From positions 1-27,925 of IMG/VR virus record IMGVR_UViG_3300003321_001333: 27,925 bases of DNA. One strand, given 5' to 3'. Each line of letters begins with the position of its first letter. The stretch's first letter is position 1. The notes below the pieces were generated by a model. It did not search any database and had not been told where the DNA came from. It worked only from the letters and a program-made list of their open reading frames with translations. The translations under genes and the position numbers were made by a program. Source of the DNA: a virus. Of the stretch, positions 2,964 to 27,925 are shown piece by piece.

Positions 2964-3986
2964 TTAGAATAAAATCCTTTTTTCCTGAATTTCAGGATTT
3001 TCACAACTCGGTCTTAATTGTTCATGCATTCGATACATTTCAATGAAGTCTTGAATTCCCATTTGTTTAATAGCCATGAGGTTACCTTCAGGGTAAGCAC
3101 CCATCATTCCGCCTTCTGTACAATTGATATAAAGTCCTGGTACTTGGAGTGCGATATAATCAAACCAATATTTGAAATTCATATAAGAAGGCCAGGTGAG
3201 GACCTTGTTGCCAAACACATCGACTCCCCGGAGGACATTCCCGAGTTTTTTATCGTATTTTGAATCCCAAGAATGAAACCGCTTATCATAGCCAAAAGAA
3301 AAATCAGCCCCCATAAACGCAATAGGGTTTGAACCCATGATTCCTTTGGAAATATAAAGGCAAGCCCCAAGGACATTACCGCCATTGCTAACATAGGTAT
3401 TAAACTCCTCAAGTCCTGCTACCGTTTGAATGTAAGCTTGATCAGGCACAGGAGCGTTAAAAAGATAGATCTCTCCTTGCCATTTTTCAAAGAGCTTAGG
3501 AGACGACCCAATGAAAGCGCAGAGTTTTTTATCTTTCGTTGAATCCCAGTATTCTTTTTCGCTCTTAGTACCGCCTTCTGCAATTTCCTCTAAAACAATT
3601 TCTCCAGCATCTAAAGACACATAGTAATCAATAGGAATATTTCGATCTTCGAAGAAATGATAATTATGAAGGCATGAAACGGCTAGGAGAGGACCACGGT
3701 CCTTAAGCTTATCCCCATTATACCCTAAAGAAGGTCCTGAACCGACAATGATGGCCGGCTTATAAGAATTAATTCCAAAAAGCTTTCCAATAGAATGATC
3801 TTTAAAATTTCCAAAGCGCTTCTTATTAGCTTTGACGTTTTCAATCCAAATTCCCCGCCAAGATTCAATAGTAATCGTGTCACTTGAGCATGCGTTTCCA
3901 TAAAGCTGCTGAGGGCTTGCAGGTGGAGTCTCAATGGAATTTTGATAATCTAATTCTAATGTAATTTTTCTTTTCTCTTTTGCCAT
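2964..3986 (-). CDS. DUF115/Maf-like glycosyltransferase (6-hydroxymethylpterin pyrophosphokinase MptE-like fold)
   Basis: 340 residues. The core matches the DUF115/Maf family: PAIIVGSGPSLGYNGDKLK (about residues 77-95), a following LLAVSCLHNYHFFEDRNIPIDYYVSLDAG, then the C-terminal signature GGNVLGACLYISKGIMGSNPIAFMGADFSFG (about 203-233). In flagellated bacteria Maf proteins transfer nonulosonic acids (pseudaminic, legionaminic) to flagellin; other members are pterin kinases or of unknown role. Here the gene sits inside the virion operon, after a large hairpin terminator (4015-4085) that separates it from the capsid genes. With a NeuB-type synthase and a GNAT elsewhere in the window, a sugar transferase acting on a virion or host surface protein is the favoured reading, but this is inference. 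Its N-terminal about 75 residues are unlike Maf and may be specific to phages. Confidence 0.75.
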   Translation of the reverse strand: MAKEKRKITLELDYQNSIETPPASPQQLYGNACSSDTITIESWRGIWIENVKANKKRFGNFKDHSIGKLFGINSYKPAIIVGSGPSLGYNGDKLKDRGPLLAVSCLHNYHFFEDRNIPIDYYVSLDAGEIVLEEIAEGGTKSEKEYWDSTKDKKLCAFIGSSPKLFEKWQGEIYLFNAPVPDQAYIQTVAGLEEFNTYVSNGGNVLGACLYISKGIMGSNPIAFMGADFSFGYDKRFHSWDSKYDKKLGNVLRGVDVFGNKVLTWPSYMNFKYWFDYIALQVPGLYINCTEGGMMGAYPEGNLMAIKQMGIQDFIEMYRMHEQLRPSCENPEIQEKRILF

Positions 3987-4014
3987 TTCTTTAAGTCCTA
4001 AAATTCAAAAAAAG

Positions 4015-4085
4015 GTGCGGGCTGGATATTTGTAAAGGGCTATCATTCCAATTGAGCCTAAAGCCCCACGCATAGGCGCCCGCAC
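4015..4085 (-). terminator. Large hairpin module with trailing poly-T between capsid and Maf-like genes
   Basis: On the minus strand an 8-bp arm GTGCGGGC is matched by GCCCGCAC 55 bases later, and the second arm is followed by CTTTTTTT. An inner GGGCT/AGCCC pairing is also possible. This fits an intrinsic terminator or attenuator after the decoration and capsid genes. The long interior is unlike a simple terminator. The arm and flank (GCGGGC-TGGAT on the plus strand) resemble those of the modules at 17353-17732. Confidence 0.55.
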
Positions 4086-4095
4086 TTTTAAATAG

Positions 4096-4605
4096 TTAAC
4101 TTCCAAAACACCGAACGTAGCCGTAGGCAGTGCCCGCGGAAGCGGTTCCTTGAACCACAACCCCGTGCACCATCAAACCAAACTCAGAAGTAACCTGCGA
4201 AAAGGTTGTCGTAAGAGTGTTGGCTGTACGAATACTGTAAGCGGTTCCAGAAAGACCAAGCGAAATAGGTCCCCCTACGATGCCGCTTGAATTAGCGTCC
4301 ATAATGATATTTGTAAAACCGCGAGTCAGTAACCACCCGTAAGTGAGTGATGGGAATGTCGCATGCTTTACATATCCAACACACACATTGAAAAATGTGG
4401 TGCTTGAAATAGTAACGCTCATGCCAGTATTTCCAGACATGACGCAGCCCAGTCCTACAGGCATTGACGTATTACTATCGTTATAAACGTAAACATACTC
4501 CTCGCCATTGACGATTCTCACTGTTCCTAAATCTACAGAAGGCGAAAGCGTTACGTTTGAAACGGACTCAAATTCAACAGGAAGACCATGAAAATTAAGT
4601 GCCAT
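4096..4605 (-). CDS. Capsid decoration or head-fiber-like protein
   Basis: 169 residues of small and hydroxyl residues in short beta strands (VSNVTLSPSVDLGTVRIVNGEEYVYVYN, then TSMPVGLGC, then the closing GTAYGYVRCFGS). It lies immediately downstream of the major capsid gene and starts at an ATG preceded by AAGGAGGGTAATCAG. Proteins of this size and composition after the capsid gene are usually decoration proteins that reinforce the shell. This is inferred from context; no signature motif was recognised. Confidence 0.6.
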   Translation of the reverse strand: MALNFHGLPVEFESVSNVTLSPSVDLGTVRIVNGEEYVYVYNDSNTSMPVGLGCVMSGNTGMSVTISSTTFFNVCVGYVKHATFPSLTYGWLLTRGFTNIIMDANSSGIVGGPISLGLSGTAYSIRTANTLTTTFSQVTSEFGLMVHGVVVQGTASAGTAYGYVRCFGS

Positions 4606-4623
4606 CTGATTACCCTCCTTTCT

Positions 4624-5544
4624 TTATGCAGCAAGAGCGCTTAGGTTGCCCTGTAAGCGCATGTTGGATGTCCCAAAAGCCCCCATCCAGTAGATCTTGG
4701 CAACTTTCACGTTTTGGTTAATCGGTTTTGCAAACGGTTCAAACCTCATGTCCTCTTCCTTATGCGCAAACAAGTGAACGTAATCTTCATTAATGAAGAA
4801 AAAGTTACTTGATGGGCAGTGAGAGTCAGGAAGAACCGGCAAGCCGTTAAACAGAAGCGACTGAAAGCCTCCGCGAGCGGAATCCGTGTCCTGAAACCTC
4901 TGCTGAGGCTGAAGGAGTGCATAATAGTAATTGAAGATCGATCGGGTCGTTATAGCAACCGTCGGGCTCCAAGAACCAATTGTGCAGCTATTCCACACAA
5001 CCTGAAGCGCTGATAGCGATGTGGTTGTCGTCGTGCTATCCAATTGTGGCTGCCACCACGAATAAGAGCTCTGAGAGATGCCCCCAATCGTATTCGAAGT
5101 ACTCATCCAGTACTGAAGACCCACAATCGACTTAGCGTTTGTGTTATTAGAGAAAATCCCAGTGCCCAGCTGATCTTCCATATTCTTTTCAGCAATTTTC
5201 ACTTTCGATTTAACGAGAGACACCATTTGCTCATCGCCGGCATTTTTCAATTCATCCGTACGAAGAATTGAAATATTCGTATAGAGCGCCTTCCACGAGT
5301 ATTCAGCGGCTGTGATCTGGTCATTGTCGTTGACGTTTAAAGTGTCAGCTCCAAAATACCATCCAGATGCTGTTGGTGTTGCATAGTTGAGCGGTACTAA
5401 GATCGAAGTACCCCCGTCCACAAGCTCATAACTTCTTTTCCTAAGCCTTTGCAATAAAGGGTTTGAATTGAAAATATTGTCATAGAGCTTGGGAATAAAC
5501 TTTCTCTCAGTGATCCCTGAGATTTGATCATAGGTAAGTGCCAT
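4624..5544 (-). CDS. Major capsid protein
   Basis: 306 residues, in the expected position after the scaffold gene and before the decoration-like gene. The opening MALTYDQISGITERKFIPKLYDNIFNSNPLLQRL, the early loop GTSILVPLNYATP, the spine-helix-like DEQMVSLVKSKVKIAEKNMEDQL and a closing beta segment with KVAKIYWMGAFGTSNMRLQG match HK97-fold capsid proteins of tailed phages that have a separate scaffold. The start has AAGGGG upstream. No N-terminal protease-cleaved delta domain is visible, consistent with use of the separate scaffold gene at 5567-6514. Confidence 0.85.
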   Translation of the reverse strand: MALTYDQISGITERKFIPKLYDNIFNSNPLLQRLRKRSYELVDGGTSILVPLNYATPTASGWYFGADTLNVNDNDQITAAEYSWKALYTNISILRTDELKNAGDEQMVSLVKSKVKIAEKNMEDQLGTGIFSNNTNAKSIVGLQYWMSTSNTIGGISQSSYSWWQPQLDSTTTTTSLSALQVVWNSCTIGSWSPTVAITTRSIFNYYYALLQPQQRFQDTDSARGGFQSLLFNGLPVLPDSHCPSSNFFFINEDYVHLFAHKEEDMRFEPFAKPINQNVKVAKIYWMGAFGTSNMRLQGNLSALAA

Positions 5545-5566
5545 ATGATGATTCCCCTTTGGTTAC

Positions 5567-6514
5567 TTACGAAGCGCGAGTGCGTCTGAGTTCCTCTCGG
5601 ATCTCGTTTTCAAGCTCTTCGTAACTGGTTTCTCTAATGCTCTTATTTCTGTTCAATTCCCTTCCCTTTTGAGGCATGGGCGATTCGCCTAAGATGCCTA
5701 GCTTGGTTCGGGTTTGAATTCCTTTGGCAACCGATTGCTGTGCTTTTGCCTGAGCACGATTTAAGAGCTCTTCATGGAGTAGGTCACGGAAGGCCGTTTG
5801 AAACTTGGCAATGCCGTTATTTTGCGCATGCTCCAAGACTCTGACCTCAAGTGATTTTCCATTTTCATCAAGAGTATTCCAATCTAGATCAGGGTGTTGC
5901 TCCCTGATGGATTTGATCTCTTGATCAAGCGCTTGATCTTCTTGCTGATGAGTGGACTGGGTTTTCCAATCCTGAAATTGCTGAACTGCAGGTAAAATTT
6001 GTGAGAGCTGCTGCTCTAAAGATTGAATTTTAGTGAGATAAGGCTGAATTTCAGACGAAACTTGCGTATTTTGTGGCTGAGTTTGCGGGCTCTGTGTGAG
6101 CGCTGCAGGATTTTGCATCCCGCGCTTCCACATCTCTTGAAGCTGCTGCCATTGAGTGGGATTTTTAGCAGCCCATTCATCGATTTGAGTGTAAGGAGAG
6201 TATTTTTGCTTTAATTGCTCCCATTGGCCACGCTCTTCTTCCCATTTAGCCTTTTCCTGGTTGAACTTCTGCATGAATTGAGGCCGGTCATAGCCCATCT
6301 GAGCCCATTTGATGATTTGGTCTCTTGTTGCCTTAATGGGTTTTCCGTTATGCGTAAATTCATACTCATCTTTAGCGGCCTTTTGATCTTTCTCCTCTTT
6401 AGGAGTAGACATTGGCCGCTCAGTATTTCTTGCTTTATCTGTTTGATCAGCAAGGAGGTCTAGCTCCTCATTTGTGCGCGTATCTTGTGTTTCTGTAACT
6501 TGCGTTTCTTCCAT
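5567..6514 (-). CDS. Scaffolding-like protein
   Basis: 315 residues, strongly charged and Gln-rich with long predicted helices: an acidic Thr/Glu-rich N-terminus, KYSPYTQIDEWAAKNPTQWQ, then Gln-rich coiled-coil segments (TKIQSLEQQLSQILPAVQQF) and a basic C-terminus ending EELENEIREELRRTRAS. Size, composition and position directly upstream of the capsid gene are the usual marks of a capsid scaffold that binds the shell interior through a basic C-terminal helix. It follows the 112-residue gene with a two-base gap. Family assignment is by context and composition. Confidence 0.75.
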   Translation of the reverse strand: MEETQVTETQDTRTNEELDLLADQTDKARNTERPMSTPKEEKDQKAAKDEYEFTHNGKPIKATRDQIIKWAQMGYDRPQFMQKFNQEKAKWEEERGQWEQLKQKYSPYTQIDEWAAKNPTQWQQLQEMWKRGMQNPAALTQSPQTQPQNTQVSSEIQPYLTKIQSLEQQLSQILPAVQQFQDWKTQSTHQQEDQALDQEIKSIREQHPDLDWNTLDENGKSLEVRVLEHAQNNGIAKFQTAFRDLLHEELLNRAQAKAQQSVAKGIQTRTKLGILGESPMPQKGRELNRNKSIRETSYEELENEIREELRRTRAS

Positions 6515-6516
6515 TT

Positions 6517-6855
6517 TTAACCTTGTGGGATTCCTTGAGATGAGTTGACAGCTGCATTTTCAGGCATAGGGCCTCCTGCTGGAGAGGGCTTTTGTGCTTG
6601 CTGAGCTTGATCTTGAGAACCACCAGTGAGGGATTCAATCATGGCATCAGTTGCCTGAGCGGCTTGTCGAAAAAGCTTAATGTCATCAGGCGGAAGTTGG
6701 CTTCCTCCTGCTTGGAGAGCTTTGCCTAAAGCCAAAAATCCGTGCTCAATCATTTGAATAGCTTGCGCTGGAGAAACTTGTGGTGAGGGCTGGCCTTGAG
6801 GAGCCGCTTTAGGACCGGGAGCGGACGCAGCTTGTGCGCCAGGTGCAACTCGCAT
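6517..6855 (-). CDS. Pro/Ala/Gln-rich portal-scaffold linker protein
   Basis: 112 residues with a low-complexity N-terminus (APGAQAASAPGPKAAPQ), a central helical part (AQAIQMIEHGFLALGKALQ, then IKLFRQAAQATDAMIESL) and a disordered Gln/Pro tail. It lies between portal and scaffold genes, where many phages have a small helper of assembly. Function unknown. The ATG at 6855 has AAAGGAA upstream at a somewhat long distance. Confidence 0.65.
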   Translation of the reverse strand: MRVAPGAQAASAPGPKAAPQGQPSPQVSPAQAIQMIEHGFLALGKALQAGGSQLPPDDIKLFRQAAQATDAMIESLTGGSQDQAQQAQKPSPAGGPMPENAAVNSSQGIPQG

Positions 6856-6915
6856 GGAGATACATTCCTTTAGCTAACAATAATTTTAGTGATTTTCTTA
6901 TAAGTCAGTCTTGAA

Positions 6916-6941
6916 TGCTGGGAGAGTGAGATCTCCCAGCA
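6916..6941. other. Perfect 10-bp hairpin between portal and assembly genes
   Basis: TGCTGGGAGA and TCTCCCAGCA flank a six-base loop. No poly-T follows on either strand, so it is not a standard intrinsic terminator. In leftward mRNA it would lie between the portal stop and the start of the 112-residue gene, where it could stabilise or process the transcript. Confidence 0.6.
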
Positions 6942-6967
6942 CCGAAAGGTACCATGAACAAAAACTA

Positions 6968-8920
6968 TTATGCCGCACCTTGTGGCTGATTTCCACCCCC
7001 TAATGGAGGAGGAATAAAAGCAGCCTGAGGTGTAGCCTTCACAGCTTGTTTGCCAGCCGTTTGTAACATCAAACCATGTTGCTGCATTTGCATCTGCATC
7101 TGCTGCATGGCTTGTTTCTTCTGGTTTACTCGCTGCAAAACCATTTCGTAATTTGGATAATCTAAATTTTTTAAGAGTTCCTCGTCATCTATGACGCCAA
7201 GTTCAAAAAGTTTGAAGCTTTTTTCTTCATTAGCGTCTTTTACAAAGGGAAGCCCAGAAGTCATCGAAACTCTGACATCAAAGTCGGCAATGATCTCGAT
7301 TTGTTTAGCCTGACCGTTTTCATTAATATGAGCTATTCGCTTTGTAATTGGATTGCCATTTTCATCCTGAGATTCAAGTTTTTCGACGTGGAAATAAAAA
7401 TATTTTTCAGCATTAGGATTTCCGGATACTCGAATTAAACGCGGCACTGAGTAAAATTGAAAAACTCGACTTAAATAAAGCTTTCCAAACTCCACTAAGA
7501 AAGCTTCTAGATTTCTAGCCTGAAGGCGTAGTCTCGTTTGTGCTGCTTGCTGTAAGCTTTGAATAGCTGAGTTGGCTGTTACATCTGTGGGCTCTACTCC
7601 TTTTGATAAATCAGTGCTCCCTGAGATGCTACCAAAGAATTGTTTATAACGGTCTAAAAGAGCCATGACAAACGGAGGAAGGTCAACCCCCGGCTCCCGC
7701 ACGATTTGAGTAACATCGTCCGCTTCCACGACTAACCCTGGCTTATTAAATAGATTATCCGTGTCAATATTGGCTGGCGATCCCACTTTCCAAATAGGAT
7801 TACTCATTAAAGCCATTGTGTCTAAAATGTGGGCTAAAATTTTATTTATACTCTTTTGAGGATTGTCTAGCTGTTCAACTTCACCCATTCCCCAAAACTC
7901 ACGCGGTAAAATATAATTTGTATATTTTGCGTATGGAAAAAGCCCATCCTCAAAATCAAATTCACCGTCGTCAAGTAAAACACCGCCTGCTACAACGATC
8001 TTTCGGCCATTTGGATATTTAAGCTTTTGAATAAACTTCTTTTTTGGCTCATTATTTTCGTCAAGTTTAGGCGTGCCATCATCGTTTAGCTCAATTTTCT
8101 CTTCTTCCTCAAAATCATCGTCTTTGGAATAAAGAGTAATCTTTAATGCCTGATTTTTGGCAATCGTGTCATAACCAGAAGGCCCTTCGATAATGAGTTT
8201 GCTATCGGTGGGACTCTTAAACATCACTTGATAGATGTCAGCTTTATCAGCTTGCGAAAAATCAATAATGTCAGCAGCAATAAATTGCGCTTTATCAGGA
8301 TACTCTTTTTTAAGCTCTACAATGTCAGTAGGAATAGCCTCAATCCAATACTTAGTACGCTTGCCGTTTACATCTCTTGCATTAGGATCAGGAAACTCAT
8401 AAAAGGAATCTGAAGATTCAAACTCAATTGAGCCTAGTCCCATATTAGCTTTTGAGTTAAAGCCTACGTAAGCTAAACCTGAGCAATAAATTTTTCCATC
8501 CTTTAAAACCTCTACAAGAGTCAAATCCCAATTATTATGTTCCCAGTCGTTTTCAAGAACCTTATTTAAAATATCGGCCAACTCTGTCTGCTGTGGAAGA
8601 GTCGACATAAACTCCACTTTGGGTCGAGAGTCTGTCAAAATTGGCACTTGAGATTCAATAGTATCAAAAATAAGATTTAAAACTTCACTTGACCTATAAG
8701 AGGGCCTGACTTCCTTCCACTGGCGCCCGCGGTACATTTTGTACCAATCAATCCAGCGGGCATCGTAGCGCTTTCGATATTTTTTAGCTTTGGAATATAG
8801 ATTATCAACTAAACGTAGAATCTTCTTTTCATCTTCTGAAGGATTATAGCCCGGTAGTCCGCCGTTCGGATTTTCGGCGCTCTGATGCTCTTGAAGGTAG
8901 GGGACTGTGATTTCGCTCAT
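6968..8920 (-). CDS. Portal protein
   Basis: 650 residues, a normal length for podovirus-type and SU10-like portals. It starts MSEITVPYLQEHQSAENPNG. Typical features are the N-terminal YDARWIDWYKMYRGRQW segment, VLNLIFDTIESQVPILTDSRPKV (wing/stem entry), a central PREFWGMGEVEQLDNPQKSINKILAHILDTM followed by long helices (SAIQSLQQAAQTRLRLQARNLEAF), and a low-complexity Gln/Met-rich crown/barrel tail (QAMQQMQMQMQQHG). The portal forms the dodecameric ring through which terminase packages DNA. The start overlaps the end of the 62-residue gene (ATGA). Confidence 0.85.
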   Translation of the reverse strand: MSEITVPYLQEHQSAENPNGGLPGYNPSEDEKKILRLVDNLYSKAKKYRKRYDARWIDWYKMYRGRQWKEVRPSYRSSEVLNLIFDTIESQVPILTDSRPKVEFMSTLPQQTELADILNKVLENDWEHNNWDLTLVEVLKDGKIYCSGLAYVGFNSKANMGLGSIEFESSDSFYEFPDPNARDVNGKRTKYWIEAIPTDIVELKKEYPDKAQFIAADIIDFSQADKADIYQVMFKSPTDSKLIIEGPSGYDTIAKNQALKITLYSKDDDFEEEEKIELNDDGTPKLDENNEPKKKFIQKLKYPNGRKIVVAGGVLLDDGEFDFEDGLFPYAKYTNYILPREFWGMGEVEQLDNPQKSINKILAHILDTMALMSNPIWKVGSPANIDTDNLFNKPGLVVEADDVTQIVREPGVDLPPFVMALLDRYKQFFGSISGSTDLSKGVEPTDVTANSAIQSLQQAAQTRLRLQARNLEAFLVEFGKLYLSRVFQFYSVPRLIRVSGNPNAEKYFYFHVEKLESQDENGNPITKRIAHINENGQAKQIEIIADFDVRVSMTSGLPFVKDANEEKSFKLFELGVIDDEELLKNLDYPNYEMVLQRVNQKKQAMQQMQMQMQQHGLMLQTAGKQAVKATPQAAFIPPPLGGGNQPQGAA

Positions 8921-9105
8921 TCACTCATCCGCTTTTTAGCTAATCTTCGTTTCATTGCCTCAGCACTAATGCCTGCGTGGCTTGCCTCTCCCATAACTTT
9001 CTTGCCGTATTTCTTATCGCCTATAGCTGCAGTGATTCTTGCTGCTGAATCAGCTGAGTAACCTTTATTTTCTAAAGCGCCTTGCATTCTTTTAAATGCA
9101 CTCAT
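8917..9105 (-). CDS. Small basic phage protein, unknown
   Basis: 62 residues: KRMQGALENKGYSADSAARITAAIGDKKYGKKVMGEASHAGIS, with a basic C-terminus. Short proteins with this 'L-x-x-K-GYS-x-x-SAARI-A-A-I' arrangement occur in many phage head-gene clusters without a known role. It overlaps the portal start and the previous gene's end, so it is part of the same translation chain. Confidence 0.7.
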   Translation of the reverse strand: MSAFKRMQGALENKGYSADSAARITAAIGDKKYGKKVMGEASHAGISAEAMKRRLAKKRMSE

Positions 9106-9323
9106 TTTTGAACCTTCAATTTTTCTTTCAGAAATTTGGTCAAACTATCAATGCATTCGAAAACATATTCGTTGTAATTAATTTTTAAAATGTAACCGTT
9201 TGCGACTAGGCGAATTTGATAAGGAAACGAAGGGTCAGAATTTTGAATATAATTGATACAATTCGGCCAACCCGTATAAGGAATTACACAATTTTGCGTC
9301 ACTCCGCCCAAGTTATTAGTCAT
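9102..9323 (-). CDS. Hypothetical small protein
   Basis: 73 residues, with three Cys (QNCVIP, PNCINY, FECID) and several aromatic residues, and a Lys-rich end. It overlaps neighbours by four bases on both sides, which supports it as a real gene. I do not recognise it. Possibly a small secondary virion or host-interaction protein. Confidence 0.65.
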   Translation of the reverse strand: MTNNLGGVTQNCVIPYTGWPNCINYIQNSDPSFPYQIRLVANGYILKINYNEYVFECIDSLTKFLKEKLKVQK

Positions 9324-9688
9324 ACACCCACATCTCCGCAGCCTACCCAGCCTTTATCTACTTCAGCCCAGGCCTGCTCTCTTTTTTCTTCTCGTTTTTG
9401 ATCAAAGTATTTGTGAAGGGATTCAGGCTTTTCGTTCCCGATTTCTTCAACGCCTTTTATTTTACAAAGCTCTTTTCGGTGAGAGCTATTTCGAACGATG
9501 CAACCAAGCCCTGGGTTGTATTCGGCGTGCTCTACTTTCGTGCCATTAAACCACACGCGAGTCGGTATAAACTCGCGTGTGGCAGGAGTTAGGCAACGAA
9601 GACAATTTTCAGGTGAATCCATTTCTTTTGCGGATTTCACCACATCAAATCGGTTTTCGCATTTTTGGCAATGATATTGATAGATCAT
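9320..9688 (-). CDS. FmdB-type zinc-ribbon phage protein
   Basis: 122 residues. The N-terminus has a zinc ribbon, C7-x2-C10 and C29-x2-C32 (CQKC, then CLRC) in the FmdB arrangement (MIYQYHCQKCENRFDVVKS). The middle contains TRVWFNGTKVEHAEYNPGLGCIVRN and the end HKYFDQKREEKREQAWAEVDKG, a pattern shared by a common phage family near portal and terminase genes. Function unproven, probably nucleic-acid or protein binding. The ATG at 9688 is the first after a non-coding inverted-repeat module. Confidence 0.75.
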   Translation of the reverse strand: MIYQYHCQKCENRFDVVKSAKEMDSPENCLRCLTPATREFIPTRVWFNGTKVEHAEYNPGLGCIVRNSSHRKELCKIKGVEEIGNEKPESLHKYFDQKREEKREQAWAEVDKGWVGCGDVGV

Positions 9689-9692
9689 AAAT

Positions 9693-9817
9693 GGCGCCCC
9701 TGGAGACCAGTTATTTCCCGGCTGTGGCCTCTCCGCGCGACGAATATTCGTTTCAGATGCGTTATTTCCTCATTAGGCGCAAAAATGCCGGGACAGATGC
9801 TACATGCATAGGGCGCC
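9693..9817. repeat. Non-coding module bounded by GGCGCCCCT / AGGGCGCC arms
   Basis: The 9689-9866 gap holds no gene. It is bounded by inverted GC-rich arms and contains the 12-bp palindrome ACGAATATTCGT (9740-9751). On the minus strand GGAAATAAC-type sequence occurs twice (GAGGAAATAACGCATCTG and CGGGAAATAACTGGTCTCC). It lies in front of the zinc-ribbon gene, so in leftward mRNA it would be a 5' leader of that gene. No poly-T terminator or known riboswitch was recognised. Confidence 0.45.
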
Positions 9818-9866
9818 GTTTGTAGCCCACGCTCTGTTTGTCGCATCGACAATCCTTGTTTAACCT

Positions 9867-10016
9867 TTATTTCTTCTGTGGAAGTTCAGGAACAGCAAGA
9901 TCCTCAACACCTTGGTCACTTGGATCTGCATCGTTATGAGCCATATCGCCTTTTGCGCTCTCTGGAACTACTGGCCCATCTCCGCTATCAAATGTTTCGT
10001 ATTGTGATTTACCCAT
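9867..10016 (-). CDS. Small acidic phage protein
   Basis: 49 residues (MGKSQYETFDSGDGPVVPES, then acidic HNDADPSDQGVEDLAVPELP and a KK end). The ATG at 10016 has GGGGGAAATCTTT upstream, and the gene fills most of the gap between the terminase-side 80-residue gene and the 9693-9817 module. Composition suggests an intrinsically disordered protein. No family recognised; support comes from the ribosome site and context. Confidence 0.6.
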   Translation of the reverse strand: MGKSQYETFDSGDGPVVPESAKGDMAHNDADPSDQGVEDLAVPELPQKK

Positions 10017-10031
10017 AAAGATTTCCCCCTT

Positions 10032-10274
10032 TTAGTAAGCTTTTGCCATTCGGCGTTTGATTGCAGCTAGTCTTGATGCTTTTTGCTGAGCAGAATCATC
10101 TTTGCCTGAATTCATTAAATTGCCGTGATAGTTTCCGAAACCGGAATTGAGATCTTGTTTAGGAGATACGCCTTGCGCTTTTGCTCCTGAGGAGCTTTTT
10201 CCTGGTGCACCATGAGGTGAGCCCGGAAGTTTCCCCTGCTTCATTTCTTCATCGCCGTCATTGTCGTTATACAT
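10032..10274 (-). CDS. Small Gly/Ser/Lys-rich protein
   Basis: 80 residues, low-complexity and disordered until a basic C-terminal helix (QQKASRLAAIKRRMAKAY) like that of several small phage head proteins; the 62-residue gene at 8917-9105 ends in a similar KRRLAKKRM. It lies 16 bases after the terminase stop. The start lacks a clear ribosome site; a shorter start at the internal ATG (MKQGKLPGS) is possible. Function unknown. Confidence 0.55.
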   Translation of the reverse strand: MYNDNDGDEEMKQGKLPGSPHGAPGKSSSGAKAQGVSPKQDLNSGFGNYHGNLMNSGKDDSAQQKASRLAAIKRRMAKAY

Positions 10275-10290
10275 GCGGTACCGAAACTGT

Positions 10291-11631
10291 TTAGTCTTGT
10301 TCAGCCCTAATAGATACAGGGCGCATTAAGCGTCTAAGTCTTTGCTCTTGAGTTTCGGCCCTTTTACTTGAGAAAGAAGTTTCTTCTGGCACAAATGGCT
10401 TAAGTCGATGGCCTGACCGATGTGTTTTGAGTGTAACAAATCTATTGGCACTCATGCAATGATCATTTTGACCAACAGGCAACTGATCTTCACTATCTTG
10501 ATCAGGGTGTAAGTCTTCCGGCTCAGGGTAATGATACGTCTCGTATTCATCAAGGGTCTGAGGGCTAGTGCCTGAGAAAACTTGATAGCGCCTTGTTTTA
10601 ATGAGCTCATAGTGTAAGTCAGTGCCTACTTGAATATCTTTTTCGGGCACTCCCACTGCTGGAATTCCATTTTGATTAAAGTATAAAATATTTTCAGGCC
10701 TCTCGTGGCCGCAATAAAATTGCCGGATGTTAAAGAGCGCCATCTTTTGCTTAGCTATTTGCATCTGCTCAGGCACTGTCATTCCGGTTTTGTAAAATTC
10801 CGATATCTGATAATGCTTATGGTCAGGAGTAATTGCGCGAACCACAATGACAAACGGCTCAGTGTGTCCCCAGTCGATTCCCGCATAGAAAACTGTACCA
10901 TTTGGAAGGCGTAACGGAGCACAGACGTTTGTAGTTTCCTCAAAGCAGTCATAGACAAGTCCCGCCATCTGGCCAAATTCACCGCCAAATAACATTTGAA
11001 AGCGTCTTGCGTCCATTTCAGCTTTAGCTTTAATGCGTTTAGATTCGTCATAGAGCTCATGATAAGGCGACTCCCAGCTTGAGGCCTCAATCAATTTAAA
11101 ATCGCGCTTTAAACCCTTTTTGTAGGGCTTAATATAGTCCTTCCAAAGCCAATTTAAAGAGTAAGGCGAAGTAGTCCCAAGCGTTCTTCCACCTTTAGCT
11201 AGGATTCTTGCTTTATAATTCTCCCAAAAATAAAGACGCATCTTACCCAGCTCATCAAGCCAGCCTGCCATAACATTTGGAATACCCACAATTGAGTCAG
11301 GATCGGTTTCAGTGCGTAAATAAACGCGCCGCTTATCTGGCATTTCAAAAACAGATTCCGTTTTATTATAGGTCCCTCGGCCCCGCAAAAGATCCAGGAA
11401 ATAGGGAGCCATACTTTGATTCATGATCTTATAGCTTGGAGAGCAAAGAAGAAAATTGACATTTGACTCAGTGCAATCGCTAATTTGTTTACCGATCCAA
11501 AGTGCGCCGCTCCTAGATTTTCCCCATTGAGTGCCAGTGATCGCAAGAGTCAAGGATTCTTTAGATGTAATTAAGTCATATTGTTTTTGAGAGTGCGCTT
11601 CAAAGACTTCTTGTGTTGTTTCAGCTGACAT
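10291..11631 (-). CDS. Terminase large subunit
   Basis: 446 residues from the ATG at 11631. The open frame extends further upstream, but that part reads through the tRNA-like element and is not protein. Motifs: Walker A-type GTQWGKS (about 33-39), Walker B-type AGWLDE (about 120-125), an RNase-H nuclease start FYAGIDWGHTEPF (about 240-252) and a C-terminal acidic active-site region ending NDHCMSANRF. The enzyme is the ATP-driven packaging motor and headful or cos nuclease. Only a weak AAAAGA precedes the start. The small subunit candidate is far away (17815-18201), an unusual separation. Confidence 0.9.
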   Translation of the reverse strand: MSAETTQEVFEAHSQKQYDLITSKESLTLAITGTQWGKSRSGALWIGKQISDCTESNVNFLLCSPSYKIMNQSMAPYFLDLLRGRGTYNKTESVFEMPDKRRVYLRTETDPDSIVGIPNVMAGWLDELGKMRLYFWENYKARILAKGGRTLGTTSPYSLNWLWKDYIKPYKKGLKRDFKLIEASSWESPYHELYDESKRIKAKAEMDARRFQMLFGGEFGQMAGLVYDCFEETTNVCAPLRLPNGTVFYAGIDWGHTEPFVIVVRAITPDHKHYQISEFYKTGMTVPEQMQIAKQKMALFNIRQFYCGHERPENILYFNQNGIPAVGVPEKDIQVGTDLHYELIKTRRYQVFSGTSPQTLDEYETYHYPEPEDLHPDQDSEDQLPVGQNDHCMSANRFVTLKTHRSGHRLKPFVPEETSFSSKRAETQEQRLRRLMRPVSIRAEQD

Positions 11632-11672
11632 GTCTTTTAGATATATCGCAAAAAGTGGAAAATAATAACATA

Positions 11673-11753
11673 TGGCTGGGACGGCGGGATTCGAACCACG
11701 CAGGAATCTCCCTAGCGACCGTAGGGCGGCTTTACCAGTTTGCCAACGTCCCA
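11673..11753 (-). tRNA. tRNA-like element, degenerate, Asp-type anticodon GTC possible
   Basis: On the minus strand a perfect 7-bp acceptor (TGGGACG/CGTCCCA), discriminator G and encoded CCA, a 3-bp D stem GGC/GCC with GG in the loop, a 5-bp anticodon stem CCCTA/TAGGG with 7-base loop CGGTCGC, and a TTCGAAT T-loop. Two oddities: position 33 is G rather than T, and the T stem pairs only with a bulged base. G73 with CCA and a GTC triplet at 34-36 point to Asp. The G33 and damaged T stem suggest a decayed or unusual gene. It starts one base beyond the stop of the MBL gene. Confidence 0.6.
11735..11748. repeat. Left copy of a 14-bp tRNA-derived direct repeat
   Basis: CCAGTTTGCCAACG, the D-arm/acceptor part of the tRNA-like gene, recurs in the same orientation at 15034-15047, with further imperfect matching (YYCCAA after it). 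The two copies flank the cargo genes. Confidence 0.6.
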
Positions 11754-11754
11754 A

Positions 11755-13002
11755 TCAAACATGTAAATAACATAACAAAAAATGCACATCCGGCTGATAA
11801 ATATTTGGTCGCCTGTCAAATTCAATGTGGCATCCGATCTCAGCATTATTCCAATGGGCTTTGCGAGTTAGGATTTGAAATAAAAGGGCAGGATCGAGGT
11901 TGGCATTTAAAAGAACCTGGTCTTTGTTACCAGCTAAACCCGCAAAATCAATGATCCAACGATTATTAATAACAACTTTACAATTCACAAGGCATCCGAA
12001 TCGCTCTTGAGCTTTTAAAACATTTCTCATAGCCTCTTGCATCAAACAATCAAGTTCGGGCTGTGCAGGAATGGGTTCCGATTCGTAGTCGTATTTTTTG
12101 GTAGCTAAAATATTTTGTAAATAATGCTTAGAATCCCTCAGTAAAAGCTCACGATTTGAGCTTTCTAACGTACTTAAATTTAGGCGTTCTCCTTCAGTCG
12201 GAGCCCAGTATCGGTGACCAGTCTGAAGATAATAATAGCGTCCAGCTTCTTCTGAATCAGTCGTACCAAGATATTCATTTTTTTCCCAATTTTTCCCACC
12301 CAACACATATTGGCCAGCAAAGGGCATCAGGATCTTAGGAGCTAAGATCTCACAAAGGCTAATCATATGATCTAAGTTTCGTTGAATGAGCCTGTGGTGT
12401 TCTAAATATTTTTCCTCATTGGTTAAGTTATTAAAACAAGAAGGATACGGCCCCGCCGCATTGTAATTGAGTTGCGCTACATCGAAGTGTTTGTAAATCC
12501 CTTTGAGTCTTTCAGCGCTTTTAAGATCTGGTGTATTATCATTTGTATTTAAAACGGTGTGCTTATCATCCATGACCACTAAAGCGCTATCAATTGTATT
12601 GCCAATAGCACAATCAAAAAACGGATGCTTAACAAAAGGCTTATACATCGTTAAGGTAAAAGGACCAAAAAAGCGTGATTCATTGTCTTTTAGTTTTACA
12701 ATATTCTTAAAACTTTCAAAACGCAGAAGCTTTTCTAAATAATTTGGCCCTTCGTCATCCAGAATGATAACAGGCTTATTTTTATCGAAATCTTTTAAGG
12801 TTTTTGGATCAAAATGATCAGGATGAAGATGACTAATGTACAATAGATCGTAATCAGCCACGTCTTGAGGTTTTGTTTTAAGAGGAGGGTAGTGATACCA
12901 AGACCCGTAGAATGCACCATCAATAAGCCAAGGATCACACAAGATTTTAAATCCATTTGATTCATAGATGCAGCAGGCGTTTGCGATAAAGGTGAGGTTC
13001 AT
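11755..13002 (-). CDS. MBL-fold metallohydrolase related to the catalytic domain of CMP-sialate hydroxylase
   Basis: 415 residues from the ATG at 13002, which overlaps the previous stop as ATGA. The N-terminus MNLTFIANACCIYESNGFKILCDPWLIDG and the metal motif SHLHPDHFD (H-x-H-x-D-H, about 59-67) define an MBL fold of the UlaG/CMAH type. NTNDNTPDLKSAERLKG and NYNAAGPYPSCFNN further resemble bacterial proteins found in sialic-acid-type gene sets. CMAH-like enzymes act on CMP-Neu5Ac, but they use an N-terminal Rieske domain and there is none here, so the reaction is open (hydrolase, hydroxylase partner, or moonlighting). It is the last gene of the synthase operon and abuts the tRNA-like element. 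Confidence 0.7.
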   Translation of the reverse strand: MNLTFIANACCIYESNGFKILCDPWLIDGAFYGSWYHYPPLKTKPQDVADYDLLYISHLHPDHFDPKTLKDFDKNKPVIILDDEGPNYLEKLLRFESFKNIVKLKDNESRFFGPFTLTMYKPFVKHPFFDCAIGNTIDSALVVMDDKHTVLNTNDNTPDLKSAERLKGIYKHFDVAQLNYNAAGPYPSCFNNLTNEEKYLEHHRLIQRNLDHMISLCEILAPKILMPFAGQYVLGGKNWEKNEYLGTTDSEEAGRYYYLQTGHRYWAPTEGERLNLSTLESSNRELLLRDSKHYLQNILATKKYDYESEPIPAQPELDCLMQEAMRNVLKAQERFGCLVNCKVVINNRWIIDFAGLAGNKDQVLLNANLDPALLFQILTRKAHWNNAEIGCHIEFDRRPNIYQPDVHFLLCYLHV

Positions 13003-13304
13003 TTGCACTCATCTTGAAGTTTTTTGAGCATCCTTTTTCCCCTATTAATATCTTTTTTAGACCTCCCCCAACTTTTTAGTTCATTTTCCTGATCATGCGT
13101 CATATTGGCAATCTTGTAAGGAGGAGATGAGATTTTTGAAAGACATTGTAAACAAAGAGTGAGGCCAGGAATTTTTGACCTTTTTAAAACTGTACTCTTA
13201 GCAATCCAAATTTCACAAAGACATCGTTCGCATTTTTCAAGCGAAGAACCAGCGCCTGGATTTTTCTGATCAATTTTTCGTTGGCAAAGGTAAATTTGAT
13301 TCAC
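12999..13304 (-). CDS. Small zinc-ribbon protein of the nonulosonate cassette
   Basis: 101 residues. Cys pairs CERC (near residues 25-28) and CLQC (near 52-55) form a probable zinc ribbon; the C-terminus is basic and helical (SKKDINRGKRMLKKLQDECK). The start is GTG at 13304 with AGGAGGATGT in front, and the junction with the synthase is GTGA. Its placement between synthase and MBL genes implies translation with them, perhaps as an assembly or electron-transfer helper. No family recognised. Confidence 0.65.
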   Translation of the reverse strand: MNQIYLCQRKIDQKNPGAGSSLEKCERCLCEIWIAKSTVLKRSKIPGLTLCLQCLSKISSPPYKIANMTHDQENELKSWGRSKKDINRGKRMLKKLQDECK

Positions 13305-14338
13305 ACATCCTCCTGAGTCAACGCATCACCTATTTGGATCTCGTTTTTTGCTTTCCTGCCTTCCACTTCATGGATTCTAAACGGCGTAAAAAAACTAGGA
13401 GAATCTCGCAAAGACCGATAGATGCCGAAATTACTGTTTTCTCTGAAAACTTCTCCAACTTTAATGTCTTTTGTCGCAATGAGCCTCCTATTGTGGCGTA
13501 AGATCATGGCTTGTTCTGATTGTGTAAGTAGTTCTCGATTCTCTTTTCCGCGTATGGCAGATACCATTTGGCTAAACTGTTGAATATTAAGACTGTGAGA
13601 AGAATCTGGGCTATCACACTCAATAGCTTTGAAATGCTTTTCGATAACACAGGACCCAAGGGCTGCAGCCAGAGTAGGAATGTTTCGGATATCCAAAGAA
13701 TGATCAGAATAGCCCACCAAAGTATTAAATTTTTGTCGATAATAGGAAACATTTTCTAAATAAATCTCCTGTGCAGGGTAGCTAGATACGCAGTACATGA
13801 GGACTAGTGGCGTAAACCAGACATCGGGATTACCCATTCGCCCTCCTCCTGAATAACCAAAGATATTTAACGATCTTCCGATTTCCTCAAGCGTATGTCC
13901 TCCAGTACTTATAAAAACTGGCTTATCTATTTTAGCTAGCTTTTCAAGCATTCTCACATGACACATTTCAGCTGAAGCTAGCTTATGGATATTGACGTAA
14001 GGATCAACTTCCTCAATTAGCTCAGGGGAGAAGGCTGAGCACATGAATTCGATGCCGATAGAATCAGCACGGTTTTTTAGATGAGGTAGCCAATCAAGAG
14101 ATAAAATTGAATCAGCAAGTTTTGATAACCCCCAAAAGACCTTTTCTCCGTATTTCATTCCATAAAGGGATTCATAATCAAACGCCTGAAACTTAACCGC
14201 ATCAGCGCCCGCTTTTTTTGCCGCTTCAATACTTGCTAAACAATCATCAAGCGTACGCCAGTTAGAACCAACTTCGGCGATGATAAAAGGCTCACAGCCA
14301 TCTCCAATTTCTAAATCATCACGAATCTTAATTTTCAC
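13301..14338 (-). CDS. neuB: NeuB/PseI-type nonulosonate synthase
   Basis: 345 residues from the GTG at 14338 (MKIKIRDDLEIGDGCEPFIIAE). This start matches family N-termini; a TTG at 14368 would add ten residues. The N-terminal TIM-barrel holds FIIAEVGSNW, AAKKAGADAVKFQAFD, KPVFISTGG, YCVSSYPAQEIYLENV, GYSDHS and CVIEKHF, the metal-binding and catalytic blocks of NeuB. The C-terminus is an antifreeze/SAF domain (RRLIATKDIKVGEVF, ending IGDALTQEDV). The family condenses PEP with an N-acetyl-hexosamine to give a nine-carbon acidic sugar. The usual NHNG after the first strand is replaced by NWRT, so substrate may differ. The gene heads a three-gene operon. Confidence 0.85.
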   Translation of the reverse strand: MKIKIRDDLEIGDGCEPFIIAEVGSNWRTLDDCLASIEAAKKAGADAVKFQAFDYESLYGMKYGEKVFWGLSKLADSILSLDWLPHLKNRADSIGIEFMCSAFSPELIEEVDPYVNIHKLASAEMCHVRMLEKLAKIDKPVFISTGGHTLEEIGRSLNIFGYSGGGRMGNPDVWFTPLVLMYCVSSYPAQEIYLENVSYYRQKFNTLVGYSDHSLDIRNIPTLAAALGSCVIEKHFKAIECDSPDSSHSLNIQQFSQMVSAIRGKENRELLTQSEQAMILRHNRRLIATKDIKVGEVFRENSNFGIYRSLRDSPSFFTPFRIHEVEGRKAKNEIQIGDALTQEDV

Positions 14339-14527
14339 AGAGTTTCTGTTACAGCGGTCAAAAAACAATTACAAGGTCCTAGGCTAAATTATTTCTCATT
14401 ATATAAACTTTATCATTAAGATTATTATAACTTTTATATTTCTCTCTCATTTACAAATTTCTTCTTGCGCTTTGGACGTTGGCCTTGTAGTTCACTCAGT
14501 TGCTCGCTTTTGAGCAAAGGAGAAAAT
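14339..14527. promoter_or_regulatory. AT-rich divergent intergenic region with hairpin at the start of the plus-strand genes
   Basis: Between the divergent cargo operons lies a very AT-rich segment (14390-14450), likely to hold promoters for both directions, though no consensus -35/-10 pair stands out. At 14500-14517 the hairpin TTGCTC/GAGCAA sits immediately before AAAGGAGA of the plus-strand gene and could modulate its translation. Confidence 0.4.
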
Positions 14528-15024: not shown

Positions 15025-15055
15025 ATTTGGCTGCCAGTTTGCCAACGCTCCAAAT
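15025..15055. terminator. Hairpin between convergent genes containing the second tRNA fragment
   Basis: ATTTGG and CCAAAT flank an interior that includes CCAGTTTGCCAACG (15034-15047), identical to part of the tRNA-like gene at 11673-11753. It lies precisely between the stop of the plus-strand microprotein and the stop of the minus-strand gene at 15058. It may act as a bidirectional terminator. It looks like the 5' end of a decayed tRNA copy. Confidence 0.5.
15034..15047. repeat. Right copy of the 14-bp tRNA-derived direct repeat
   Basis: The same 14 bases as at 11735-11748, in the same orientation, about 3.3 kb apart. Together the copies bracket MBL, zinc-ribbon, synthase and the two plus-strand envelope genes. 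Confidence 0.6.
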
Positions 15056-21945: not shown

Positions 21946-21967
21946 GTTTATCACAAAATTATCACAA
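21946..21967. repeat. Left arm-type repeat of attP
   Basis: A 22-bp sequence containing TTATCACAA twice, at an 11-bp spacing, is identical to that at 22165-22186 in the same orientation. Together they flank the tRNA core. They are best read as integrase arm sites. Confidence 0.55.
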
Positions 21968-22164: not shown

Positions 22165-22186
22165 GTTTATCACAAAATTATCACAA
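22165..22186. repeat. Right arm-type repeat of attP
   Basis: Second copy of the 22-bp TTATCACAA-pair repeat, between the core and the integrase stop. Confidence 0.55.
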
Positions 22187-22193
22187 CGATTTT

Positions 22194-23303
22194 TCATTGT
22201 TTTAAAGTGCCAGTATGTAACGAAAGCTTCGCGTCACAGATCTCTCTAAATTGCTGCGAGGTCTCTGTCTTTAGGTGGTTGTAGATTTGATCGATCGTTT
22301 CAGGAGTTGCTCCAAAGATCTGACTTGCACTGCCTTTCGGAAGTCCTGCTGCTAATTGATCAGTGATTGCCACGTGTCTAGTATCGTGAAAACGCGCTAC
22401 AACTCCAAGAGCTTTCTTAGCTTTCTTCCAAAAATATTTATTATCTTGCTGTGGTTGGCTCCAGTTTACCGGCCTGCCTGGCTTATTCCTAATTATTCTA
22501 GGAAAAATATAAGGACCTTGTGCATCGTCATAAGCTTTTTTAAGAAGCGGAAATACGCTTGCTGGAACGGGAATAGAAACCTTTCGCTGCATTCGGGTTT
22601 TAATTCTAAATGGGTCAAGATTAATTTCTTTGTGAATCAAATCAATCTCCTGCTTTTGAAGATGTAAAATTTCTGACTTTCGCATTCCCATCGTCCAAGC
22701 CATCAGAAGCTGCAGATAGAATTTTGGCTCTGATTTACACCAGTCAAGTAGAGCTAAAATATCATTTTTATCAATAGGTGGGCGACCCAAAGCTTTTTTT
22801 ACTATCGTTAACTCTAAATCTTTCCCTTCAAAATAGCGTTTCACATCTCCAGATGTATAACCAAGGCGCAGGGCCTGAATTAGGTATCTTCTGTCATGCT
22901 GAAGTAACCGTCCGGGAGTTTCTATTTGCTGATCAAGCTTATATTTCGCCCAGAGTTTTTTATAGTATTTCTCAAACGAAGCTATTTCAGGACAATGCTG
23001 ATTAAACCACGGCCTTAAATGCTGGATAGAATATTTTGTATTTTCGTAAGTACCTTTTGATTTAGGCCGCTGGACATCAAGGAGATCATCAAAAAGTTGA
23101 TCAAAACTATATTTCTGTCGTTTAGCCATTTCTGGTTCTTTTCGTATCTTATCAGCTTCTTCTTTTGCCAAGCCGATCTTATTGGTCTTGAGGCTTTTCT
23201 CGATAAACTGACCTGAGACTGTACCTCGAAAATAGTAGGTACCTTTTTTGCTTTCCGTATTCTTAAAAATATACTCATAATTGGTCTCTTTAAATCTTTT
23301 CAT
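22194..23303 (-). CDS. int: Tyrosine integrase
   Basis: 369 residues. An N-terminal arm-binding and SAM-like part is followed by a catalytic domain with the first Arg in MGMRKSEILHLQK, the HxxR box HDTRH (about 306-310) and the active Tyr in IYNHL (about 341). This matches lambda-type tyrosine recombinases that integrate at tRNA genes. It overlaps the excisionase gene (ATGA) and its 3' end borders the attP arm repeat. Confidence 0.9.
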   Translation of the reverse strand: MKRFKETNYEYIFKNTESKKGTYYFRGTVSGQFIEKSLKTNKIGLAKEEADKIRKEPEMAKRQKYSFDQLFDDLLDVQRPKSKGTYENTKYSIQHLRPWFNQHCPEIASFEKYYKKLWAKYKLDQQIETPGRLLQHDRRYLIQALRLGYTSGDVKRYFEGKDLELTIVKKALGRPPIDKNDILALLDWCKSEPKFYLQLLMAWTMGMRKSEILHLQKQEIDLIHKEINLDPFRIKTRMQRKVSIPVPASVFPLLKKAYDDAQGPYIFPRIIRNKPGRPVNWSQPQQDNKYFWKKAKKALGVVARFHDTRHVAITDQLAAGLPKGSASQIFGATPETIDQIYNHLKTETSQQFREICDAKLSLHTGTLKQ

Positions 23304-26341: not shown

Positions 26342-26722
26342 ATGAAGTACTTAATTAGTTTTATAGGTTGTTTGGTTTTTGTAGGCTGTGGGAGCGATTA
26401 TTTTCCCCAGGATGCAACATGTAATGGGTCGGAAAAAGCGACGGACGGTAGTACCACAACCTATTACTTCAAGACGGTCCATGTCGCTGGAGTCGTCAAT
26501 TATACCTGCGGTGTAAACGGACAAATACTTACTGCAGCTTACGGAGATCAACAGTTCATAAAAACTACGAATCCCTCATGCGTCGTAATCTTCCCCAAGA
26601 CCACTGCTTACTTTGTTTTTACTGATTTGAGCGATACAGTCGTCGCAACGGTTAATAATCCTGGCGGAGCCTCTGACGGCCATACGTTTAAATTTCAAGA
26701 TTCTCAATGCACCCGTCCTTAA
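26342..26722 (+). CDS. Predicted lipoprotein
   Basis: 126 residues. MKYLISFIGCLVFVGCGSDYF carries a lipoprotein signal, with VGC as the likely lipobox. The mature part is beta-rich with three more Cys (ATCNGS, YTCGV, PSCVV) plus a QCTRP end. It lies just after the repressor on the same strand, so it may be expressed in the lysogen. Stop codons of this gene and the convergent lysozyme gene share the same bases. A lysogenic-conversion or superinfection-exclusion role is plausible. Confidence 0.7.
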   Translation: MKYLISFIGCLVFVGCGSDYFPQDATCNGSEKATDGSTTTYYFKTVHVAGVVNYTCGVNGQILTAAYGDQQFIKTTNPSCVVIFPKTTAYFVFTDLSDTVVATVNNPGGASDGHTFKFQDSQCTRP

Positions 26723-27159
26723 ATCTTAAAAAAGAGCTCTCGCTCCTTAAGTCTTCTCTCAAAAAGTCCAGGATTATAGACGCCAGCTACTTTATTCCAG
26801 ACCAAGAATTGATTTCCAGCTTCAAGAAGATGCTTTTCGTTAATGAGTCTTAGAATCTTAGAATGAAGAAACGCACCAAAGCCAATGTTGTAGATCAAAC
26901 TTAAAAGGCCGGCGATTTCATTTTCTGTAAGAGGAGTGTGCACCACTTTAAGAAGCTCTTCTCTTAGCATCTTAAGCCTTCCTCTTAGCCAATTAGCGGC
27001 TAAGGGCTCAGTAACCTCGACTCCCTCTCTCACATGGGGGCCAGTTTCGCCATAGCCTATTGTCCAAACTCCGCCTTGATCCTGATAAGCTTTAGCCCTA
27101 AATCCTTCACATTCTTTAATGAGCTTTAGTCCTTCTTCATTTATCGGCATGTCGCTCAT
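26719..27159 (-). CDS. GH24 phage lysozyme (endolysin)
   Basis: 146 residues. E18 in ECEGF, D27 in AYQDQGG and T33 in VWTIGYGET form the T4-type triad. LLSLIYNIGFGAFLHSKILR and NPGLFERRLKERELF are family blocks of the C-lobe. There is no signal or SAR helix, so export depends on a holin, possibly the gene at 27156. The enzyme cuts peptidoglycan at host lysis. Confidence 0.9.
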   Translation of the reverse strand: MSDMPINEEGLKLIKECEGFRAKAYQDQGGVWTIGYGETGPHVREGVEVTEPLAANWLRGRLKMLREELLKVVHTPLTENEIAGLLSLIYNIGFGAFLHSKILRLINEKHLLEAGNQFLVWNKVAGVYNPGLFERRLKERELFFKI

Positions 27160-27380
27160 CTTCTCTCCCTAAACTCCTTTTGCTCTTTTAGCCATTCCTC
27201 TTCTTCAGTAAAGCTCTTTGGCTTTTTTTTCTGATTGGTTTGCCGTGTAAAGAATAATGGCCCTTGGCTTCCAGTTTGTGATTGAGGAGTGTCCTTGATA
27301 AATGATCGTAAAAACCAAAGAGAGAAACACAAAAATACAATAGAGGTGACGCAGCCTAGAAAATAACCTAGGTAGAACAT
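27156..27380 (-). CDS. Membrane protein of the lysis region (holin- or spanin-like)
   Basis: 74 residues from the ATG at 27380 (MFYLGYFLGCVTSIVFLCFS), one N-terminal membrane segment followed by a charged C-terminal part (KKKPKSFTEEEEWLKEQKEF). A TTG start at 27392 is also possible. It overlaps the lysozyme start as ATGA. The N-in anchor with charged coil could be an i-spanin or pinholin, but no class is certain. Confidence 0.5.
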   Translation of the reverse strand: MFYLGYFLGCVTSIVFLCFSLWFLRSFIKDTPQSQTGSQGPLFFTRQTNQKKKPKSFTEEEEWLKEQKEFRERR

Positions 27381-27925
27381 AAAACGCGGCAATCGTTGAA
27401 AATACTAAGATGCTTCCATTCATCGATTAACATTGAAAGAAAGTAACTCTTGATGTGTTTCCCTTCTTTAAAATAGCATTTTCCGGGGCCTTCGTTAACA
27501 TGAAATCCTAATTTCTTAAACAAATGTTGTGCGGGATTATTCTCGAAAGTCTCTCCCCAAATTTGATAAAGTCCGTAGGTTAAAAAGCCGTGAGAGAGAA
27601 GCGTCTTTAACGCAGCTTCTCCATAGCCTCTCTTTTGATATTTAGATGCGATGTATAATGAAAACTCAGCGGTGCGATTGATAAGATCTAAAGAGGTGAG
27701 CCCGCAAACTCCAATCTCGTTTTTATTCCTATCATAGATTAAATACATCTTAAGAGTTGGATCATTAGGAAGTCTTTCGGCCCATGAATAATGGGATGCT
27801 TCATCAAGTAAATCATGCTGTCTGGTCCACTTAAAGATCTTAGGATCATTTCGCCATTCTCTGAGCAGATTAAGATTAAAATGATCAATCGTGCCGAGTG
27901 TCACGCCCTGGCGGTAATCAATCAT
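27368..27925 (-). CDS. GNAT acetyltransferase, RimJ/PseH-like (start at the window edge)
   Basis: 185 residues visible, opening at the last base of the window, so the true start may lie further right. LREWRNDPKIFKWTRQH and HYSWAERLPND, then IGVCGLTSLDLINRTAEFSL, the acetyl-CoA loop KYQKRGYGEAALKTLL and ENNPAQHLFKKLGFHVNEG are RimJ/RimL-type GNAT motifs. PseH, which acetylates a UDP-amino sugar in pseudaminic acid synthesis, has the same layout, but so do many other phage GNATs. Substrate unknown. Confidence 0.75.
   Translation of the reverse strand: MIDYRQGVTLGTIDHFNLNLLREWRNDPKIFKWTRQHDLLDEASHYSWAERLPNDPTLKMYLIYDRNKNEIGVCGLTSLDLINRTAEFSLYIASKYQKRGYGEAALKTLLSHGFLTYGLYQIWGETFENNPAQHLFKKLGFHVNEGPGKCYFKEGKHIKSYFLSMLIDEWKHLSIFNDCRVLCST

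Follow-up and report, generated by a model that had tools for sequence, protein, structure and literature searches.

Some bacteriophage genomes hold genes for sugars as well as for particles, which raises the question of whether a phage may make a sugar itself and attach it to its own virion. The question arises here from IMG/VR record IMGVR_UViG_3300003321_001333, the whole of which (27,925 nt) was analysed and is called the window. An earlier note, made from the letters alone, had proposed that scattered genes for a nonulosonic acid in this DNA serve the decoration of the virion or a change of the lysogen's surface. The window holds terminase, portal, capsid protein, tail-side genes, integrase and lysozyme, and its genes are cut at both ends. 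Position 1 lies inside a gene with homologues of 633-650 residues, and the start codon of an acetyltransferase (GNAT) gene on the minus strand is the last triplet (27925 is its first base), so that an operon is cut here. A second contig, L003, is identical to the window over the common part, and when contigs were searched for an exact overlap with the right end, none was found. Because the close relative G002 (capsid protein 87% identical) has about 10 kb at the place matching the window gap, the complete genome of the window phage is estimated from sequence to be ~38 kb. The features used below are as follows.

2964-3986, minus strand: putative nonulosonate transferase of DUF115/Maf-like type, virion operon, 340 residues (PF01973, E 5e-16)
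4096-4605, minus strand: Ser/Thr-rich protein, 169 residues, between the capsid and DUF115 genes
4624-5544, minus strand: major capsid protein, MCP (phrog_9953, E 2e-56)
5567-6514, minus strand: scaffold-like protein between portal and MCP (named by position only, syntenic in relatives)
6968-8920, minus strand: portal protein (phrog_156, E 2e-54)
10291-11652, minus strand: terminase large subunit (phrog_2, E 1e-29)
11673-11753, minus strand: tRNA-Asp(GTC) between the MBL and terminase genes (ARAGORN)
11755-13002, minus strand: metallo-beta-lactamase-fold (MBL) protein, accessory, NeuB operon (PF13483/PF12706)
12999-13304, minus strand: small zinc-ribbon-like ORF (ZnR) overlapping both neighbours (weak DksA-type match, E 1e-3)
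13301-14338, minus strand: NeuB/PseI-type ulosonate synthase (PF03102, E 5e-50; SAF domain above cut-off)
22194-23303: tyrosine integrase
26719-27392, minus strand: lysozyme (Phage_lysozyme, E 9e-33) and a small protein after the GNAT, used as a synteny marker
27368-27925, minus strand: PseH-like GNAT (TIGR03585, 78 bits)

A Maf-like gene among the virion genes

The DUF115 protein contains a PF01973 (Maf_flag10/MptE-like) domain, scoring 59 bits where the cut-off is 34.6. The capsid alignment, run against 2.9 million viral contigs, gave 80 loci, and merging left 74 contigs with enough downstream sequence. In 72 of these, the DUF115 gene lies 486-1850 bp downstream of the MCP gene on the same strand, and the two contigs in which it is missing are those whose capsids are most distant (31-32% identical). 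DUF115 distances correlate with MCP distances (Spearman rho 0.70) about as portal distances do (0.71), and with aminotransferase distances at rho 0.80. DUF115 is a core virion-operon gene of this clade, and the earlier note had placed it correctly. Scans of genome contigs with the DUF115 and MCP alignments found no relatives.

Alignment of 52 DUF115 homologues gives 20 invariant columns, including a GxGP motif, H107, D126 and D228, and S86, L87 and H238 are more than 90% conserved. The AlphaFold model built from this 52-sequence input has a pLDDT of 95.7. In a PDB fold search, the model matches Maf 5mu5 from Magnetospirillum magneticum (E 4e-10) ahead of MptE 8sd5 (1e-5) and human sialyltransferase ST8SiaIII (3e-4), and a profile of the phage family also places 5mu5 first (E 4e-7) and MptE second (3e-3). 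By predicted fold and profile, the best match of DUF115 is therefore the flagellin glycosyltransferase Maf, rather than the archaeal pterin kinase MptE or the sialyltransferases. The reading of the protein as a pterin kinase only, which the earlier note had named as a danger to its proposal, was rejected on this ranking.

Published Maf proteins put CMP-nonulosonates on Ser/Thr of flagellin, and their central domain is PF01973, which resembles the sialyltransferase Cst-II (PMC11339370). The phage protein and Maf 5mu5 have in common this domain and a nonulosonate pathway nearby. Maf 5mu5 is a three-domain protein of 666 residues, whereas the phage protein covers its central region only, lacks the N-terminal Rossmann-like and C-terminal helical domains (TM 0.52 on query length), and is encoded among virion genes without a flagellin partner. 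No PHROG family matches DUF115, tblastn against 50,697 phage records found no match to DUF115 or to the cytidylyltransferase described below, and relatives carry the name 'MptE-like', so standard resources miss the system. No useful match came from plasmids searched with tblastn for bacterial Maf sequences.

The Ser/Thr-rich protein encoded between MCP and DUF115 has a homologous ORF in 70/72 relatives, where it is ~160 residues long with a median Ser plus Thr content of 20%. It has no match in Pfam or PHROG. Its composition and position make it possibly the glycan acceptor, or a decoration protein.

Sugar genes in the window and its relatives

The NeuB-type synthase with a SAF domain was recovered as the earlier note had described it, with an alternative TTG start possible at 14368. 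Its closest solved relative is the pseudaminic acid synthase 8h2c (E 1.6e-37), to which it aligns over the whole length; SpsE (1vli) and SiaC align over most of it. Compared with these three, the protein keeps E21, the K and Q of VKFQ, the K, S and E of KLASAE, SDH and EKH, residues to which catalytic roles are assigned as in SiaC. The aligned active-site positions are intact at the sequence level, and the loss of such residues on alignment with PseI, SpsE and SiaC, which the earlier note had considered, is not seen. There is no equivalog match, with 166 bits for NeuB (cut-off 400) and 159 bits for PseI (cut-off 340). Since these scores are nearly equal and both far under the cut-offs, they do not tie the product to one nonulosonate. 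NeuB proteins of ~211 residues, which have no SAF domain and a shortened N-terminus, were also found (L115:16692-17339, L116:7981-8616 and L112:9411-10046). We read them as minimal or degenerate synthases; they are true PF03102 matches, which rules out profile drift as the cause of the short matches.

The GNAT that had been noted at 27368 is PseH-like, TIGR03585 (PseH) being the top-scoring NCBIfam family, with GNATs at 78 and 81 bits under the curated cut-off of 93.1. The window GNAT is syntenic with GNATs that close a sugar operon in G002, G003 and G009, and a homologue of the small protein g27156 comes after the GNAT in G002 and G009. The operon in these three relatives encodes a PseB-like dehydratase, a short Gfo/Idh protein (GFO; absent or undetected in G002), a CTP_transf_3 cytidylyltransferase (CTP) resembling CMP-sugar synthetases, a class-III aminotransferase (AT3) and the GNAT. 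The dehydratase scores 200-240 bits against TIGR03589 (cut-off 408), and every NCBIfam match of a sugar enzyme is under its curated cut-off. AT3 keeps the invariant Lys in an LGKA motif. The exact order PseB-GFO-CTP-AT3-GNAT is found in 10/25 contigs and NeuB-GFO-CTP-AT3-PseB in 5/25, while AT3 is opposite in strand to the virion genes in 8/25. NeuB, virion genes and sugar operon share one strand in G003, G010, G021, G022 and G049. In G003, where the two ends have sequence in common and each lies within the portal gene, NeuB heads the operon of terminase, capsid and tail genes, with the sugar operon placed after the tail genes and a peptidase gene. The gene content of G021, G032 and G047 is probably complete, as they have direct terminal repeats. 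The description of the sugar genes as scattered thus holds for the cut-off window record and not for the relatives, where the pathway is conserved.

To assess co-occurrence, we counted genes in 13 records of at least 33 kb that were reached via capsid, DUF115 or GNAT queries. DUF115 is present in all 13, CTP and AT3 in 12 each, NeuB and GFO in 11 each, PseB in 10, GNAT in eight and MBL in none. A query with the aminotransferase alone gave 17 further records of 32-40 kb, of which all 17 have PF01973 and the clade's capsid and 16 have NeuB. Outside the capsid clade, contigs with AT3 have no match to PF01973 that exceeds the cut-off. So specific an association is strong evidence that transferase and pathway belong together in the clade, and related phages do not carry these genes independently, as the earlier note had feared they might.

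G050 (L124/L125), a 33-kb record of 31% GC, has DUF115 but lacks every gene of the sugar pathway, and may draw on a CMP-sugar of the host. We also observed a second phage group with a different capsid gene and NeuB-PseB-AT3-GNAT-CTP near it (L193, L197, L198, L201, L203, L205, L208, L211 and L216). In L208, the sugar genes sit between head-tail and tail genes. PF01973 was not found in the tested members of this group, and an uncharacterised protein of 440 residues (L208:12581-13903) may be its transferase.

Proposed pathway and rival explanations

The pseudaminic/legionaminic (Pse/Leg) pathway has six steps, namely 4,6-dehydratase, aminotransferase, acetyltransferase, hydrolase, synthase and cytidylyltransferase. 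The relatives hold candidates for five of the six and lack the hydrolase: DegT-type (PseC) aminotransferases and GT28-type (PseG) enzymes were found in 0/22 relatives, and Epimerase_2 (NeuC-type) enzymes in 0/13. The absent steps are either replaced by AT3 and unknown proteins or supplied by the host. Compared with cellular Pse/Leg pathways (PseB-C-H-G-I-F, LegB), the phage clade also has PseB-, PseH-, PseI/NeuB- and cytidylyltransferase-like enzymes, but has AT3 for PseC, an additional Gfo/Idh protein, and neither PseG nor NeuC. Cellular Gfo-CTP-AT3 glycan clusters, as on a Halorussus plasmid and on Pseudosulfitobacter pSMR1-1, have the CTP and AT3 pair beside NeuB/PseI as in the phages. These clusters are chromosome- or plasmid-borne and also contain a DegT-type aminotransferase, and pseG in pSMR1-1, both of which the phages lack. 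On the Pseudosulfitobacter plasmid, one gene (L159:8998-11031) in a pseB-pseC-pseG-pseI cluster covers both a cytidylyltransferase match and an AT3 annotation, and is probably a fusion of the two. Its place between pseC and pseG/pseI suggests that the CTP and AT3 pair belongs to nonulosonate chemistry.

Glycosylation of capsid or tail proteins by phage-encoded enzymes is known from mycobacteriophages, where ordinary sugars and glycosyltransferases are used; we know of no nonulosonate pathway or Maf-type enzyme in those systems. Sialic-acid-like sugars on viruses are usually derived from the host. Shewanella sfmABCDE (PMC3765264) is closer in content, as a NeuB-like enzyme is needed there for an O-linked nonulosonate on protein, the gene set is non-canonical and a Maf gene adjoins it. 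That system modifies flagellin with a TPP enzyme, a methyltransferase and an ATP-grasp protein, whereas the phages have AT3, CTP and GFO.

We consider it probable that the phage makes its own CMP-nonulosonate-like sugar and that a virion protein receives it from the Maf-type DUF115. The computation established gene content, fold, conservation, co-occurrence and position, and from these we infer the substrates, the order of steps, the nature of the sugar, its acceptor and the glycosylation of the virion. The PseB-like enzyme would dehydrate a UDP-HexNAc, AT3 would aminate the product in PseC's place, and the PseH-like GNAT would N-acetylate it. Release from UDP is normally the task of PseG or NeuC, and may be carried out by the host. 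The NeuB/PseI-like synthase would then condense the sugar, whose identity we give as nonulosonate-like by homology, with phosphoenolpyruvate, and the CTP_transf_3 protein would activate it with CMP. Glycosylation of the virion would follow in the host cytoplasm during assembly, DUF115 transferring the sugar to Ser/Thr residues in a protein associated with the capsid, for which the Ser/Thr-rich neighbour is a candidate. This reading is supported by the likeness of DUF115 to Maf and its co-divergence with MCP, the NeuB active site, the co-occurrence in both directions, the sugar operon of the relatives with its AT3 Lys, the one-strand layouts and the Ser/Thr-rich partner. We count against it the absence of PseC, PseG and NeuC, the below-cut-off NCBIfam scores, the short DUF115, the lack of pathway genes in G050 and the opposite strand of some AT3 genes. 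The window itself holds part of the pathway only, and the remainder comes from the relatives.

Of the two purposes named by the earlier note, decoration of the virion appears from sequence to fit better than a change of the lysogen's surface, as the transferase has a constant place in the morphogenesis operon and an integrase is rare among the relatives. The sugar might still alter the host surface or flagella for receptor masking or superinfection exclusion, with DUF115 as a late transferase for host glycans or flagellin. Known Maf proteins do act on flagellin (PMC11339370), the window phage has a tyrosine integrase, and some sugar operons run opposite to the virion genes. We nevertheless regard this as unlikely: the place of DUF115 between capsid and tail genes is constant, its divergence follows that of MCP, a late gene of the virion operon is badly placed for lysogenic conversion, and a tyrosine integrase was found in only 2/22 relatives. 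That DUF115 instead serves in structure or assembly, or is a pyrophosphokinase of the MptE kind, with the sugar pathway serving another purpose, would agree with MptE as the second fold match and with the Pfam family name. The lead of Maf by fold and profile with sialyltransferases next, the presence of DUF115 with AT3 in all 17 independently selected records and the rho of 0.80 make this quite improbable. The distance between the sugar genes in the window, and a near copy of a tRNA end beside the NeuB-ZnR-MBL cassette that suggests past insertion, could point to separately acquired passengers (morons) without joint function. We rejected this idea, and hold it to be very improbable, since in the clade the genes occur together almost without exception, keep their positions and diverge in a correlated way.

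A broader proposal extends virion decoration to the whole clade, and we give about equal weight to its being right and its being wrong. Phages of 33-40 kb would have self-made nonulosonate-like glycosylation as a core of particle building: a Maf-type transferase of one domain would be encoded in the head-tail operon next to its dedicated acceptor on the capsid surface, and CMP-ulosonate would come from a non-canonical pathway in which known PseC/PseG enzymes are absent. The second group may have this pathway in its virion operon too, served by a different transferase. Each element, the Maf enzyme, the nonulosonate pathway and the glycosylated virion, is already known by itself. A search of the open-access literature, with subscription papers and preprints outside its scope, found no account of a phage Maf or a phage nonulosonate pathway, and neither this literature nor PHROGs nor the phage records searched show the three combined as core genes nearly universal in a phage clade. 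The results suggest that a large uncultured phage family coats its own particles with sugar. If this is true, a viral lineage with a near-complete pathway and a transferase among its core genes would represent autonomous glycosylation of a kind rare in phages. Enzymology and glyco-engineering would gain a small Maf of one domain, CMP-ulosonates could be reached by a new route through a class-III aminotransferase and without PseG, and capsid glycans would have a testable role in adsorption, stability or escape from host defences.

The synthase cassette and other minor features

The MBL protein had been assigned to the CMP-sialate-hydroxylase (CMAH) kind. Its MBL fold stands (Lactamase_B_3, E 2e-7, HxHxDH motif); the hydroxylase assignment, a superfamily link only, was rejected, as the Pfam matches are generic MBL families and, among solved structures, the isothiocyanate hydrolase SaxA matches best (E 4e-5). 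A homologue, 44% identical, adjoins NeuB in G009/L012 only, and MBL is an accessory gene, present in two phages. Its fold model was too poor (pLDDT 41) and was discarded. The zinc-ribbon gene reported between MBL and NeuB is present as the ORF listed above. The tRNA-Asp gene is absent from the relatives tested, except the identical L003. A 20-nt, 90% copy of its 5' end (11735-11754) is found at 15034-15053, on the far side of the 3.3-kb NeuB-ZnR-MBL cassette, and may mark a past insertion of the cassette beside the tRNA gene. Directly downstream of the integrase gene there is an exact 22-nt direct repeat (21946-21967 and 22165-22186, 219 nt apart), possibly a regulatory or att-related site.
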